Shown here one piece after another: positions 2,683-42,142 of a DNA stretch of 44,078 nt. The stretch covers positions 1 to 44,078 of the IMG/VR virus record IMGVR_UViG_3300048930_000249. One strand, given 5' to 3'. The position numbers and the translations under genes are program-made. Below the pieces are notes generated by a model, which did no database searches, had not been told where the DNA came from, and saw nothing but the letters and a program-made list of their open reading frames with translations. Each line of letters begins with the position of its first letter. The stretch's first letter is position 1. The DNA comes from a virus.

Positions 2683-4568
2683 GCTCGCCTCTGCGCCAGC
2701 TGCTCTTCGCCGACGGCCGCGGCGGCCGCAGCATCCGCCCACACATTGGAGCCCGGCCCTTTGTAGGACGGCGTGCGCAGCGGCTTCGGCAGCCAGCCCT
2801 TGGGTGTCAGCTCGCGCACCGCCATTTCCACCAGGTCCTTCTTCTTCTTCGACGGGGTCACGCCGGAAACCGCTGCCTCGCCCAAAGCGGCGGCCAGGCT
2901 CTCGCGCGGCATGCGCTTGAAGAACTCGGCGTCGGGCTGCCAGAACGCGGCAACATCGGGATCGAAGGCGTCGATGATCGGCCGCAGCGCATCAAGCATC
3001 GCGGCGTCGTACTTGAGCAACGGCGCGATGCTGAGGGCGATGGCCTGGTCGAGGTGCTCGCTCCCGGCAAGCGCGCCGAACACCTCGACGATCGCGCAGG
3101 CGTGCGGATCGTGCTGCAGATTGTCCATCATCTGGGCGTGCGCCGCGGCGACCTCTTTGCCAATTTCGGCAAACCGGCGCTGCGGAGCGTCCACAATGAA
3201 TCCCTCTGGCTTTGCGAACTCGCTGACGTTCATCAGCAAGGCCGCGGCCAGGCGCAGCGCCTTGGCTGGCGCCGCCATGATCGCCCATTGCATGGCATGG
3301 GTCATCGCCGTGGCCATCTCCGCCTGCAGCGCGCCGGTGAAATCCGCCTCGGCCTCCGTCTCGACGCTGCGCACCGGCGACGGGTCCTTGCCGCTGTCGC
3401 GCGCCGTCTGCTTCGAGGCCCTCGCCTCCTTCCTTGCCGCGGCAGGTTTCATCATGCCGTACGTGACGGTGATCTCGCTGTACTCCCGGCGCACCACCAC
3501 ACCGGATTTCTTCTTCTGGGCGTCGGTGAAGAAGTTGCCGGCGAGTTGCTCGAGCTCGGCCTTGGTGGCGTCCAGCTTGTCCTGCAGCTGCTCCTCGGCA
3601 TCGCGGTCCTCGGTCTTCCGCCATTCGGCGTCGAGCCGCTTGATTTCGGCCTTGAGCGCGTCCGCCCTGGCCCTCTGTTCCTTCGACAGGCTGCGCTTGC
3701 CCTCGGGTTTGATCCATGGCCAGCCATTGGTCTTGTGGGTGCGCACCTTGTCCATCTCGAAGACGACGAAGCCCCAACCCTCGTCGAGCCAAGCCTTCTC
3801 GTCGGCCTTCAGCTTCTGCTGGAACAGCTTTGTCAGGAGCTTGCCATCGGCCAGCCAGGCGTTGTTGGAGAACAGGTCCTCGTCCACGGCGCCGCCGGCG
3901 GCCCTGTAGGCCTCGATCCCGACATAGGCAGCCTCGGGCGAGTCTGCCGCGATGCGCGCCTTCGAGAACTCGTTCTTGATCTGCCAGCTCTTGCACACGC
4001 CCTGCTTCCAGAGCTTGAGCGCCTGGGCCGGATCAGGCAGCAGCGTGTAGGCCTGCGCATCCTCGAGCCCGATCTCACCCGCCTTGAGGCCTGCCACGAT
4101 CTCCTTCGGCAGCTTGCCGATGGCCAGCCGCTGGCGCACGCGGCGGAGTGGAATGCCGAAACGCGCGGCAATGTGCTCCGGGGTCATGCCTTGCGACACG
4201 AGGTCGGTGAAGTCCAGGGCCTCGTCCGCCGGGTGAAGGTCCATCCGGGTGATGACGGTGGCCAGGGACAGCGACATGGCCTCGGCATCGTCGAGCTCGC
4301 GGATGTAGGCCGGGACCGGGTGATCGTGCGGCAGCTTCCCCTGCTCGGCCAGGAGCTTCATGGCGCGCAGCCGGCGGCCGCCGTCGACCGGCTCATAGCC
4401 GCGCGCGGACGGCCGCAGCAGCAGCGGCTGGCCGAGCTCCTGCACGTCGATCGTGGCGGCGAGCTCGCCGACGTCCGTCTCGGTGTCGCGCCGGGCATTG
4501 ATCGCGGGGTTGTAGTAGATGTCGCTCAGCGCGACGTAATCGAGGCGGGAGGTGTCCTGTTCGGGCAT
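2679..4568 (-). CDS. Large ParB/RepB/Spo0J-like protein
   Basis: A 629-aa protein with an N-terminal ParB-like nuclease-fold domain: NARRDTETDVGELAATI, then EPVDGGRRLRAMKLL (the box II-type motif). An HTH region follows (MTPEHIAARFGIPLRRVRQR, about 140-160). The rest is a long helical part including a Lys/Glu-rich coiled coil (about 270-350) of unknown role. ATG at 4568 is chosen because the upstream extension does not resemble protein. No ParA-like ATPase is present, so plasmid-style partition is unlikely; gene regulation or DNA binding during early infection is more plausible. It is followed directly (ATGA) by the J-domain gene. Confidence 0.85.
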   Translation of the reverse strand: MPEQDTSRLDYVALSDIYYNPAINARRDTETDVGELAATIDVQELGQPLLLRPSARGYEPVDGGRRLRAMKLLAEQGKLPHDHPVPAYIRELDDAEAMSLSLATVITRMDLHPADEALDFTDLVSQGMTPEHIAARFGIPLRRVRQRLAIGKLPKEIVAGLKAGEIGLEDAQAYTLLPDPAQALKLWKQGVCKSWQIKNEFSKARIAADSPEAAYVGIEAYRAAGGAVDEDLFSNNAWLADGKLLTKLFQQKLKADEKAWLDEGWGFVVFEMDKVRTHKTNGWPWIKPEGKRSLSKEQRARADALKAEIKRLDAEWRKTEDRDAEEQLQDKLDATKAELEQLAGNFFTDAQKKKSGVVVRREYSEITVTYGMMKPAAARKEARASKQTARDSGKDPSPVRSVETEAEADFTGALQAEMATAMTHAMQWAIMAAPAKALRLAAALLMNVSEFAKPEGFIVDAPQRRFAEIGKEVAAAHAQMMDNLQHDPHACAIVEVFGALAGSEHLDQAIALSIAPLLKYDAAMLDALRPIIDAFDPDVAAFWQPDAEFFKRMPRESLAAALGEAAVSGVTPSKKKKDLVEMAVRELTPKGWLPKPLRTPSYKGPGSNVWADAAAAAAVGEEQLAQRRA

Positions 4569-37725: not shown

Positions 37726-39879
37726 ATGGCTACGGTTGCAATTACACAAACAGCCAACCCGGCTGGCGTAGCTGCATCCAGCACTGTAGCAACCTATTCC
37801 GGTGTCAGCATCGGAACGGCGGCTGATGACCGTATTATTGTCGTCGTTGTTGGTACAGAGTTAGCGGGCGCAAACCCTAGCGCCTGTACCATTGACGGAA
37901 CCGCGATGAATGCCGGGACGGGCGGCGACTTCGGTGCCGTCCAGACCAACCTGTTCTGGCTTCCGTGGCCCAGCGGCACGACGGCGAATATCGCGGTAAC
38001 GTTTTCGTCGGTCAGCCCTTCGGCCACGCGAAACCATATCTCGGTCTATCGTGTCACAGGCGCTGGCTACAACGTCACCACTGGTGCCGACAGCTCCACG
38101 GACATGGACGCCACGGACCCACTTACAACGGGTTCTGTCACCATCCCAACCAACGGCGGCTTTCTTGCCGTCGCAGCAGGCGCTACCGACACAGTTGCCA
38201 AGACATGGGCCAACGCAACTGAAGACCTCGACGTCGATGCTGGTGGCTTTCGCCACACAACCGCGACAAGAACGACCGCAGGAACGGTCACGATTACATG
38301 CACCGGTGGCACCAACGGCGAAGACGGTGCTCTTTCGTGGATCATCTTCCCGCCCGGTTATGGCGTCATTGCCGAACCCGGCGCGTTTACATTCACCGGC
38401 ACCGATGCCAGTTTGGAGTATGGGCGCGAGGTCGCCGCTGATGCCGGTTCCTATGCCTTCACCGGCACTGATGCCACTCTCGGTTACTCTGGCGATGTTC
38501 AGGGCGCGTTTCAGGCCGACGCATTCCAGAACGATGCCTTCCAGGTTGAAGCGGCAACCGCCTATTCACTTGCAGCCGATCCGGGCTCGTTCCTCTTTAC
38601 GGGCGTTGACGCCAACATCGAATACGGGCGTGAGGTTGCCGCAGGGGCTGGCAGTTACGCTTTCACCGGCACCAATGCCGATCTTGAGTTTGGCCGTGAG
38701 GTAGCAGGCAGCGCTGGCAGCTTTGCCTTTACCGGCACAGATGCCAATCTGGAATACGGCCGTGAGGTTGCGGCAGGGGCCGGAAACTTCTCGTTCAGCG
38801 GAACCGATGCAAGCCTTGAGCTGGGCCGCGAAGTTCTGGCCGGGGCGGGTGCCTACACGTTCACCGGCACAGACGCGGCGCTGGAATATGGCCGCGCCGT
38901 CGTTGCCGATGCCGGGACCTACGGGTTCACCGGCACTGACGCAAACCTTGAGTATGGAAGGGAAGTCGCTGCTGACGCTGGTTCATATGCCTTTACGGGC
39001 GTGGATGCCAGCCTTGAACACGGCAGAGAGATTGTAGCCGACGCGGGGTCATATGCCTTCACGGGCGTTGATGCCTCGCTTGAGTATGGCCGGGAACTGG
39101 CAGCGGATGCGGGTTCATACGCATTCACGGGCGTTGACGCTGATCTCGTCAAGGCGGCTGCAAAGGTACTTCTGGCTGAACCAGGTGCATTCGTCTTTAC
39201 CGGCACAGATGCATTGTTGGAACATGGCCGCGAGATTGCAGCCGGTTCCGGTTCATTTGCCTTCACAGGGTTTGACGCCAGTCTTGAACTGGCCCGCGAG
39301 CTTTCTGCCGAGGCCGGATCGTTCGCCTTCACCGGAACTGACGCCAGCCTCGAATACGGTCGAGAGATCGCCGCTGGCGCTGGAAGTTATGCATTCACCG
39401 GAACGGATGCATCGCTCGTCTATTCCGGCGGCGCGAGGTTCATCGCCGCTGATCCAGGCAGCTACGCCGTCACCGGCCAAGACGCCGATCTCGAACACGG
39501 CAGGGAGCTGCTGGCGGAGGCCGGATCGTTCTCATTCACTGGCACAAACGCCAGCCTTGATCGCGGCCGCCTCGTCGCGGCGCTGTTCGGCACGTTCACG
39601 TTCTCGGGAACGGACGCCGATCTTGAACGCGGCCGCGAGATCGTTGCTATTGATGGCTCGTTTACATTCTCGGGAACGGATGCATTCCTTGAGTATGGCC
39701 GTGAAGTCGAGGCCAGTTCCGGCTTCTATGCGGTTAGCGGAGTTGATGCAGACCTGTACCACGGCCGCGATCTGGCGGCGGAAGCGGGCGCGTTTGGATT
39801 TGATGGTGCGGACGCCACGCTAATATATGAGGGTGTGGCCATTCGTCAGCCATACGCTCAAGGTTTTATACTGAGTTGA
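37726..39879 (+). CDS. Long repetitive virion protein (717 aa, 21 repeats)
   Basis: Residues 1-~212 form a beta domain similar to the product of 33865-34611. From ~215 on, 21 units of about 22 residues follow, consensus GREVAADAGSYAFTGTDASLEY, each predicted as paired short strands. One insertion (GAFQADAFQNDAFQVEA, ~262-280) interrupts after unit 2, a motif seen in other alphaproteobacterial phage proteins. It ends IRQPYAQGFILS. Regular length suggests an elongated fibre or surface filament. No enzyme motif. Confidence 0.75.
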   Translation: MATVAITQTANPAGVAASSTVATYSGVSIGTAADDRIIVVVVGTELAGANPSACTIDGTAMNAGTGGDFGAVQTNLFWLPWPSGTTANIAVTFSSVSPSATRNHISVYRVTGAGYNVTTGADSSTDMDATDPLTTGSVTIPTNGGFLAVAAGATDTVAKTWANATEDLDVDAGGFRHTTATRTTAGTVTITCTGGTNGEDGALSWIIFPPGYGVIAEPGAFTFTGTDASLEYGREVAADAGSYAFTGTDATLGYSGDVQGAFQADAFQNDAFQVEAATAYSLAADPGSFLFTGVDANIEYGREVAAGAGSYAFTGTNADLEFGREVAGSAGSFAFTGTDANLEYGREVAAGAGNFSFSGTDASLELGREVLAGAGAYTFTGTDAALEYGRAVVADAGTYGFTGTDANLEYGREVAADAGSYAFTGVDASLEHGREIVADAGSYAFTGVDASLEYGRELAADAGSYAFTGVDADLVKAAAKVLLAEPGAFVFTGTDALLEHGREIAAGSGSFAFTGFDASLELARELSAEAGSFAFTGTDASLEYGREIAAGAGSYAFTGTDASLVYSGGARFIAADPGSYAVTGQDADLEHGRELLAEAGSFSFTGTNASLDRGRLVAALFGTFTFSGTDADLERGREIVAIDGSFTFSGTDAFLEYGREVEASSGFYAVSGVDADLYHGRDLAAEAGAFGFDGADATLIYEGVAIRQPYAQGFILS
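38371..39830 (+). repeat. 66-bp coding repeats in the 717-aa protein
   Basis: The DNA encodes 21 consecutive copies of a ~22-residue unit (core F-T/S-G-T/V-D-A-x-L-E-Y/H). Neighbouring copies 9, 10 and 11 are nearly identical (DAGSYAFTGVDASLE), indicating recent duplication or gene conversion, whereas units 16-21 are divergent. Copy number is probably variable between related phages. Confidence 0.8.
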
Positions 39880-40252: not shown

Positions 40253-40633
40253 ATGCCTCGCCTTCTGAAGCTGGCCGCCCTTGTGGCGGCTTTCGTGTTT
40301 CTGGCGCCGGTCATCGCAGCGCACGCTCACAGCTGGTACAGCGGGAAAACCGATCCCGTCTATGGCCAGTCATGCTGCGGCGGGAGCGATTGTGCGCAAT
40401 GGGTCATTCTGCCGGGTGAATTGTCGGCTGAAACTGACGGCATTCGCGTCCGGCTATCGCATGAGCGGACGAAACTCATCAACCCCTATTCGCAGTCGCC
40501 CATTGACGCGCTTGTCAAATGGGACCGGGTGCAGCCGTCCGAAGACGGCAACTGGCATCTGTGTCTGATGACTTCCTTCCGCGCAGGAGAGCGCGGCGGC
40601 ATCTATTGCCTGTTCATGCCGCCGAACGGGTGA
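40253..40633 (+). CDS. Secreted Cys-containing phage protein
   Basis: A 126-aa exported protein with a signal peptide (MPRLLKLAALVAAFVFLAPV, cleavage near AHA-HSW) and mature part starting HSWYSGKTDPVYGQSCCGGS. Four or more Cys (SCCGGSDC, HLCLM, YCLFM) suggest disulfides. I recognise it as a conserved rhizobial phage/chromosomal type of unknown function. TAGGAG precedes ATG. A periplasmic step of lysis or superinfection control is possible. Confidence 0.75.
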   Translation: MPRLLKLAALVAAFVFLAPVIAAHAHSWYSGKTDPVYGQSCCGGSDCAQWVILPGELSAETDGIRVRLSHERTKLINPYSQSPIDALVKWDRVQPSEDGNWHLCLMTSFRAGERGGIYCLFMPPNG

Positions 40634-40697
40634 GGGCAAGGATATCATCCTTGCGGCCTTCATCCTCGCCCAGCAACCGCCATGCGGTCCCACAGGC

Positions 40698-40904
40698 ATG
40701 GTGGAAAAGCGCATCCATGACCAGTACGGCGAAAGCATCATCGGCGCTGGCGTGACGGCAGGCGGCGTCATGTTCACCACAGTCAATCCCGTGACCGGAA
40801 CATTTACAATCATGCTCCGCCGTCAGGACGGCCAGACGTGCGTGCTCATGGGCGGAACCGGCTACGCCACCATCGACGCCATCAAACCAGGGACAGACCT
40901 ATGA
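40698..40904 (+). CDS. Small hypothetical protein, uncertain start
   Basis: At least 68 aa from ATG 40698 (MVEKRIHDQYGESIIGAGVT ... ATIDAIKPGTDL). The frame is open upstream and reads GKDIILAAFILAQQPPCGPT, which looks like the end of a signal peptide, but no ATG, GTG or TTG exists there. Either an unusual start (ATC near 40647) or loss of the original start is implied. The stop overlaps the HNH gene start (ATGA). Confidence 0.55.
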   Translation: MVEKRIHDQYGESIIGAGVTAGGVMFTTVNPVTGTFTIMLRRQDGQTCVLMGGTGYATIDAIKPGTDL

Positions 40905-41386
40905 AAACCTCGAAAGCAGGGCTTGCCATCATCAAGAAGTGGGCTTTGGTTGGTAAACCAAACGAGTGCTGGCCTTTTAGCGGGCGATCATTTGTGACAA
41001 ACGGAACTGGCCGCTTAAAGTATGGCCAAATTGGCTATAATGGCCAGAAATGGCGAGCCCACAGATTGGTTGCCAATCTATGTGGCAACACACTAACCCC
41101 AGATATTTGCGTCTGCCATTCGTGTGACAACTCGTTGTGCATGAACCCGTCACATTTGTTCTTGGGAACCCAGGCAACCAATGTCGCTGACAAGATGGCA
41201 AAGGGACGCCATAGAGCGTTACGAGGCGAAAAAAACGGCCACGCCACCATTTCAGATGCTGCTGTAGCCGAGATTCGCCGTCTTGCAAGATCAGGGGTCA
41301 ATCAACGTGTTTTGGCGGAGACTTACAATGTCTCTCAGCCGCTCGTCAGCATGATCAAAAACGACAAAACCAGAGTAATGCCATGA
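40901..41386 (+). CDS. HNH homing endonuclease carrying endolysin N-terminus
   Basis: A 161-aa HNH nuclease: WRAHRLVANLCGNTLTPDIC, CHSCDNSLCMNPSHLFLG is the HNH_3-type core with the final NPSHL, followed by a C-terminal HTH (RSGVNQRVLAETYNVSQPLV). The first residues MKTSKAGLAIIKKW match the start of the following endolysin (MKTSKVGLELLKRW), so it seems to have entered the endolysin gene and kept a copy of its 5' end. Its DNA is less GC-rich than neighbours. ATGA overlaps on both sides. Confidence 0.88.
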   Translation: MKTSKAGLAIIKKWALVGKPNECWPFSGRSFVTNGTGRLKYGQIGYNGQKWRAHRLVANLCGNTLTPDICVCHSCDNSLCMNPSHLFLGTQATNVADKMAKGRHRALRGEKNGHATISDAAVAEIRRLARSGVNQRVLAETYNVSQPLVSMIKNDKTRVMP

Positions 41387-42015
41387 AAACAAGCAAGGTT
41401 GGACTTGAACTGCTGAAGCGTTGGGAGGGCTGCCGCCTCAAGGCATACCAGGACAGCGTGGGCGTCTGGACGATCGGCTACGGCCTTACCTCCGCCGCCG
41501 GGATAGTGCCCGTCACCAAGGGGATGACGATCACGCAGGCACAGGCGGAGGAGTATCTTGAGATCGCCCTGGGCGCATACGAGGCGGGTGTCACCAAGGC
41601 GATCAAGCGCCCGATGACGCAACCCCAGTTCGATGCCATGGTGAGCCTTTGCTACAACATCGGGCCGGGGGCCTTCGGCAAGTCCACGCTCGTCCGCCGG
41701 TTCAACGCGGGCGACATCGCCGGAGCTGCCGACGCCTTCCTGATGTGGAACAAGGCCGGGGGCAAGGTGCTCAAAGGCCTCGAAAACCGCCGCAAGGATG
41801 AGCGGGCGCTATTCCTGACCGCCGCCACGGCCCAGCCAAAGCCCGTGGCGCCCGTTCCACCGTCTCCGGCACCAATCCCGCCGCCGCCCGATATCGAGCC
41901 GCCATCGCCGCTCCCTGAGCCGCCTGACGCCGGTTCGAGCATCGCGGCAATCCTGCTCGGCGCGCTGGGAATGCTCATCGCGGCAATGGCCGCTTGGATC
42001 ATAGGAGGAAAGTGA
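41383..42015 (+). CDS. Endolysin, GH24 lysozyme with C-terminal membrane anchor
   Basis: A 210-aa peptidoglycan muramidase. RWEGCRLKAYQDSVGVWTIG holds the T4-lysozyme-type triad Glu15-(8)-Asp24-(5)-Thr30; QPQFDAMVSLCYNIGPGAFG and LENRRKDERALF complete the GH24 fold (residues 1-145). A Pro-rich linker (150-185) leads to a C-terminal hydrophobic segment (AAILLGALGMLIAAMAAWII), so the enzyme is probably held in the membrane. No N-terminal SAR segment is seen. Confidence 0.93.
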   Translation: MKTSKVGLELLKRWEGCRLKAYQDSVGVWTIGYGLTSAAGIVPVTKGMTITQAQAEEYLEIALGAYEAGVTKAIKRPMTQPQFDAMVSLCYNIGPGAFGKSTLVRRFNAGDIAGAADAFLMWNKAGGKVLKGLENRRKDERALFLTAATAQPKPVAPVPPSPAPIPPPPDIEPPSPLPEPPDAGSSIAAILLGALGMLIAAMAAWIIGGK

Positions 42016-42016
42016 A

Positions 42017-42142
42017 ATGGAAAAGATAACCGCTTATTGGACCTGGCTGGTCGCCAAGACCGGCAGCACCAAGACCGCCATCGCCATCACGGCTGGCGGA
42101 ACGCTCCTGCTGTTGATCCTGATCGCGGCCGCCGTGTCATGA
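42017..42142 (+). CDS. 41-aa single-span membrane protein in lysis cassette
   Basis: A mini-gene encoding MEKITAYWTWLVAKTGSTKT, then AIAITAGGTLLLLILIAAAVS, one transmembrane helix at the C-terminus. AGGAGG 9 nt upstream is a very strong ribosome site, and the stop overlaps the next start (ATGA). Size and setting suggest a holin helper or pinholin-like role, unproven. Confidence 0.65.
   Translation: MEKITAYWTWLVAKTGSTKTAIAITAGGTLLLLILIAAAVS

Follow-up and report, generated by a model that had tools for sequence, protein, structure and literature searches.

An HNH endonuclease gene that begins with the 5' end of a GH24 endolysin gene in a viral genome

A viral record of 44,078 bases (hereafter the window) was analyzed. 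In it, a gene encoding an HNH endonuclease is followed directly by a gene encoding a GH24 endolysin, and the endolysin 5' end is found twice: as codons 1–14 of the HNH ORF (40901–40942) and, differently spelled, as codons 1–14 of the endolysin gene itself (41383–41424). Sequence comparisons firmly support the view that residues 1–13 or 1–14 of the HNH protein are endolysin sequence, the endonuclease gene having captured the endolysin 5' end. The account that we favour, as probable rather than secure, is that an HNH homing endonuclease invaded the endolysin gene after codon 14 and took over its start, and that a second 5' end restored the endolysin reading frame.

Three genes on the plus strand are concerned: a small ORF (ORF68; 40698–40904; 68 amino acids from its first ATG; phrog_25396-like), the HNH ORF (40901–41386; 161 amino acids; stop codon at 41384–41386) and the endolysin gene (41383–42015). 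The ORFs, coordinates and N-terminal peptides of the latter two given in an initial annotation of this DNA, which placed their starts at 40901 and 41383, proved correct. Both junctions are ATGA overlaps: one combines the ORF68 stop codon (40902–40904) with the HNH start, the other, at 41383–41386, the HNH stop with the endolysin start. A Shine-Dalgarno-like AGGGA lies inside ORF68 at 40889–40893, 7 nt before the HNH start. The endolysin contains a Phage_lysozyme domain (PF00959, E 9.4e-48) and the catalytic Glu motif, WEG at residues 14–16. Glu15 of this motif, which we take to be the catalytic Glu of GH24 lysozymes, is encoded by the GAG at 41425–41427, and the duplication reaches up to this codon. 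The same order of ORF68, HNH and endolysin was found in an independent contig, L001, whose HNH protein is 61% identical to that of the window, likewise precedes the endolysin and begins with the lysozyme motif described below; these are the only two cases of an endolysin-linked HNH with a lysozyme start.

Two observations were made on the genes upstream. Sequence homologous to ORF68 extends beyond its first in-frame ATG (40698), and the ORF68 region of the window (40659–40904) has no in-frame ATG, GTG or TTG at the upstream start position, where L001 has a signal-peptide-like start (MMELALAAILVQAQQ); a non-standard start or damage is possible for ORF68 in the window. Farther upstream, 37726–39879 encodes 717 amino acids made up of AAGAGSYAFTGTDASLEYGREV-like repeats, in what is probably a tail-associated or surface protein; a similar, shorter protein is present in locus L168 (3560–4201, in the reverse strand's own numbering).

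The N-terminus of the HNH protein, MKTSKAGLAIIKKW, and that of the endolysin, MKTSKVGLELLKRW, are identical at 9 of 14 amino acids, and the corresponding codons at 25 of 42 bases; the differences between the copies are not purely synonymous, as the initial annotation had implied them to be. Wherever the gene downstream of an HNH gene could be scored (68 loci), the two N-termini were compared, and 47,509 pairings of an HNH with a downstream N-terminus across loci served as the null. The pair from the window scored 50 and that from L001 scored 34, against 24 for the best null pairing, and no further HNH protein with an endolysin-like start was found among the 66 other HNH loci with a scorable downstream gene. 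Across all loci compared, the motif MK[TIV][SN]xxG[LI] is found at the start of 15 endolysins and of two other proteins out of 6,544 Met-headed frames of at least 80 amino acids, and the only non-endolysin carriers are the HNH of the window and its L001 relative. MKTSK starts just two of these frames. Chance resemblance, or a common and unrelated MKTSK start, an objection raised at the outset, was thus ruled out by the null pairings and the frame count.

The remainder of the HNH protein (40943–41383) has homologues among other phage HNH proteins, the homology beginning at about residue 14, and its relatives, genome matches included, mostly align only from there. Combined, the exclusivity of the motif, the above-null score and the onset of HNH homology near residue 14 indicate that the first 13–14 residues derive from an endolysin, as had been proposed from inspection of the DNA. 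Convergence, with selection for expression or folding having shaped the initiation region or the N-terminal peptide independently of the endolysin start, appears very improbable: many HNH relatives do have an N-terminal ...RFW.KV segment, and the fold therefore accommodates a helix that ends in KW, but MKTSKAG and MK-NRAGI are not features of the HNH family, the motif occurs only in lysozymes and these two HNH proteins, and no null pair came near the score of the window.

The conserved His, Asn and zinc-binding Cys/His residues of HNH/His-Me finger enzymes are present in the protein. H73, C75, C80, H85 and N94, within the catalytic core (residues 71–94; 41111–41184), are invariant in 21 sequences. 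PHROG HNH families match it with E values down to 9e-22, and its Pfam matches lie below the gathering cut-offs. By fold it is closest to I-HmuI and I-PpoI, homing endonucleases of the HNH/His-Cys box type, though both matches are weak (E 0.02–0.04); the segment H73–H85 aligns to I-PpoI at a constant offset of 25 with marginal similarity (E 0.2), residues of the I-PpoI motif HC..C....C.NP.HL falling into register. In an AlphaFold2 model (mean pLDDT 90.5), residues 5–14 form a helix, lying in blocks of pLDDT 96–97, and the C-terminal region is helical. Given the helix at residues 5–14, the captured peptide appears to serve as the N-terminal helix of the HNH protein. A C-terminal three-helix segment (41255–41359) resembles a helix-turn-helix and is the probable DNA-binding part.

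I-HmuI and I-PpoI are both intron-encoded, whereas no intron match was found here. A self-splicing intron that holds the HNH gene, with splicing joining the first 14 codons to the remainder of the endolysin, would bring HNH codon 14 and endolysin codon 15 together in frame; this arrangement is nevertheless scarcely credible, since the 482 nt between the two starts are nearly all HNH coding sequence and the endolysin has a start of its own. A group I intron-encoded endonuclease, with an intron core around the ORF, was likewise set aside, there being no Rfam intron match in 40500–42100.

Which of the two copies is native was assessed by comparison with four endolysins of the same clade (L164, L165, L168 and L001). 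The first 42 nt of the window endolysin match these at 0.48–0.60 and its codons 15–145 at 0.73–0.81, while the first 42 nt of the HNH ORF match the same lysozymes at 0.64–0.74. At the 17 bases that are discordant between the window copies, the clade agrees with the HNH copy in 12 cases and with the endolysin copy in 3. The 5' end of the endolysin gene is nearer to another lysozyme group (L178, L185, L198 and L199; 28–29 of 42 bases) than to its own clade (20–25 of 42), and its codons 15–36 match the clade at 55–58 of 66 bases. These first 14 codons are AT-rich, unlike those of the clade, with a GC3 of 0.50 against 0.94 in codons 15–30; GC3 is 0.71 in HNH codons 1–14 and 0.52 in the HNH body. 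In both phages the HNH start has the stronger Shine-Dalgarno duplex (−4.8 versus −2.4 kcal/mol for the weak site of the endolysin in the window; −7.1 versus −3.9 in L001). These comparisons favour, short of significance, a history in which the HNH gene kept the native 5' end and the endolysin gene received a replacement: the codon bootstrap interval for the polarity difference is 0.25–11.0 nt and the sign-flip p is 0.12, the informative stretch being only 42 nt long. The direction first suggested, with the original start retained by the HNH gene and the lysozyme recoded, is thus backed in the window by the 12:3 count, GC3 and the Shine-Dalgarno sites and weakened by the sign-flip result and by L001; we regard it as probable.

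In L001 the polarity is opposite, the discordant sites dividing 4:12 between HNH copy and endolysin copy, and by sequence it is the endolysin copy that appears native, the HNH copy being foreign-looking or drifted. The L001 HNH start (3001–3042) shares 32 of 42 bases with an endolysin start on the unrelated contig L215 (8947–8988), more than with its own endolysin (25 of 42). The reversed polarity weakens a simple one-donor story. Nor does a simple donor model predict the likeness of each HNH N-terminus to its own endolysin at residues 4, 5 and 8, which read SK..L in the window and NR..I in L001.

It is possible, if doubtful, that the endolysin's own first 14 codons were doubled when the HNH body arrived, with no second donor, and that the copies then diverged with occasional gene conversion within each phage. 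The residues common to both copies within each phage are as duplication or conversion would predict, and a native-looking endolysin copy beside a drifted HNH copy in L001 is what relaxed constraint would produce. In the window, however, the constrained gene, that of the endolysin, bears the aberrant copy, whereas the HNH copy, free to drift, is native-like, and the GC3 of the endolysin copy resembles that of the HNH body and not that of the endolysin. We consider it unlikely that an HNH gene with a lysozyme-like start originated a single time in a different phage and was transferred from there as a ready-made cassette to sites before different endolysins, with no insertion inside this one. Such a transfer would fit L001, where the HNH start is closest to a lysozyme of the other group (L215) and the resident endolysin looks native, but the HNH start of the window matches lysozymes of the resident clade. 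It would also fit the synonymous saturation between the HNH bodies of the window and L001; synonymous divergence gives no decisive date for the HNH gene relative to its flanks, since one of the flanking genes has reached saturation as well.

Under the favoured account of insertion after codon 14, the HNH homing endonuclease would cut the endolysin gene near codon 14 (TGG), just before the codon for the presumed catalytic Glu. At the left junction, the endolysin start, ribosome site and first 14 codons would have become the in-frame beginning of the HNH ORF, joined to its body at a Trp tolerated by both proteins, and the endonuclease would be expressed from the endolysin's start because of this fusion. 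At the right junction, another endolysin 5' end would have been brought in from a donor or duplicated locally, making the endolysin reading frame complete again. Endolysin translation would be started by ATGA coupling from the HNH stop, on which it probably depends, and the re-spelled endolysin copy may block re-cutting by the HNH enzyme. An insertion after about codon 14 had been put forward in the initial annotation; the duplication and the HNH-homology junction both end at about residue 14, in agreement with that position, and the homing insertion itself we infer.

Relatives without the HNH gene had been expected to show a single endolysin start. In L072/L165, L163, L168 and L210, which lack it, one start of the same MKTS/MKTN type indeed follows an unrelated small gene, but none of these relatives carries the same ORF68. 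Two viral scans and one phage search found no relative with ORF68 and without an HNH gene before the endolysin, and the exact empty site was therefore not seen; the ORF68 scans returned only L160, which is the L001 contig again, and distant homologues that are not followed by an endolysin. Among the latter, L234 (2935–3246) and L235 (2956–3264) lie on Roseobacter-group plasmids among cellular genes, ordinary Rhodobacterales ones, far from any annotated endolysin. Prophage copies were sought among the relatives of a Sphingomonas genome: each profile was run against 385 genomes of its class, and the endolysin profile against 397 of its family, and no endolysin-linked HNH gene was found.

In L070/L071, the upstream genes of the window are present, ORF68 is absent, and a different endonuclease-like gene, whose product has an N-terminus unrelated to the endolysin, lies directly before the endolysin gene. 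Since this gene occupies the same place, the endolysin start looks, on gene order and sequence, like a landing or target region for endonucleases. The protein (L070 1114–1614; L071 2504–3004) is of a RIDN...NCRWAT type, without a significant Pfam match, and the end of its gene and the endolysin start share a GTGA overlap.

The closest precedent is found in mobile endonuclease ORFs (mORFs) of fungal mitochondria, in atp6 of Allomyces macrogynus and in atp6, atp9, cox2 and nad3 of Glomus sp. (PMC3630166). Insertion of such an endonuclease ORF into a host gene brings with it a second, recoded copy of the gene's 3' end, and the native end, closer to relatives at the DNA level, stands beside the endonuclease (PMC3630166). 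As in the window, an end of the host gene occurs twice around the endonuclease; the mORF end is the 3' (C-terminal) one and the Glomus enzymes are LAGLIDADG or GIY-YIG (PMC3630166), whereas here the 5' end, a phage, an HNH enzyme and only 14 codons are involved. By analogy, the phage arrangement would work like mORFs, of which it is not classed as a member because its duplicated end is 5', and it looks like their 5'-end mirror image. In the available part of PMC2988022, free-standing seg and mob endonucleases of T4-type phages are promoterless cassettes between phage genes, expressed on the upstream message and targeting conserved sequences, and mobE follows nrdA with a stop/start overlap. The HNH gene resembles them as a cassette of this kind with such an overlap; it differs in that they cleave hundreds of bases or more away from the gene, and a captured host-gene 5' end is not among the features described in that part. 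The same part describes split-gene insertions, mobE in Aeh1 nrdA and mobA in T4 gene 60, in which the endonuclease likewise interrupts a coding sequence at a site critical for function; those host proteins are produced as two pieces, whereas here the endolysin frame is full, with a second 5' end. An incomplete literature search found no 5'-end version in phages.

Tentatively, and somewhat short of calling it probable, we suggest a class of phage homing endonucleases that would repeatedly enter GH24 endolysin genes before the catalytic-Glu codon, take the resident start and ribosome site, and give in return a cleavage-resistant 5' end that travels with the element, as a 5' mirror of the mORFs. 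If the account given here is true, a promoterless selfish gene can enter an essential phage gene without breaking it, taking the host's translation start and leaving the host gene a spare 5' end. Endolysin translation would then be tied to the endonuclease, so that its retention would be favoured. The principle, exemplified so far by 3' ends in fungal mitochondria, would thereby be extended to 5' ends and to phages.
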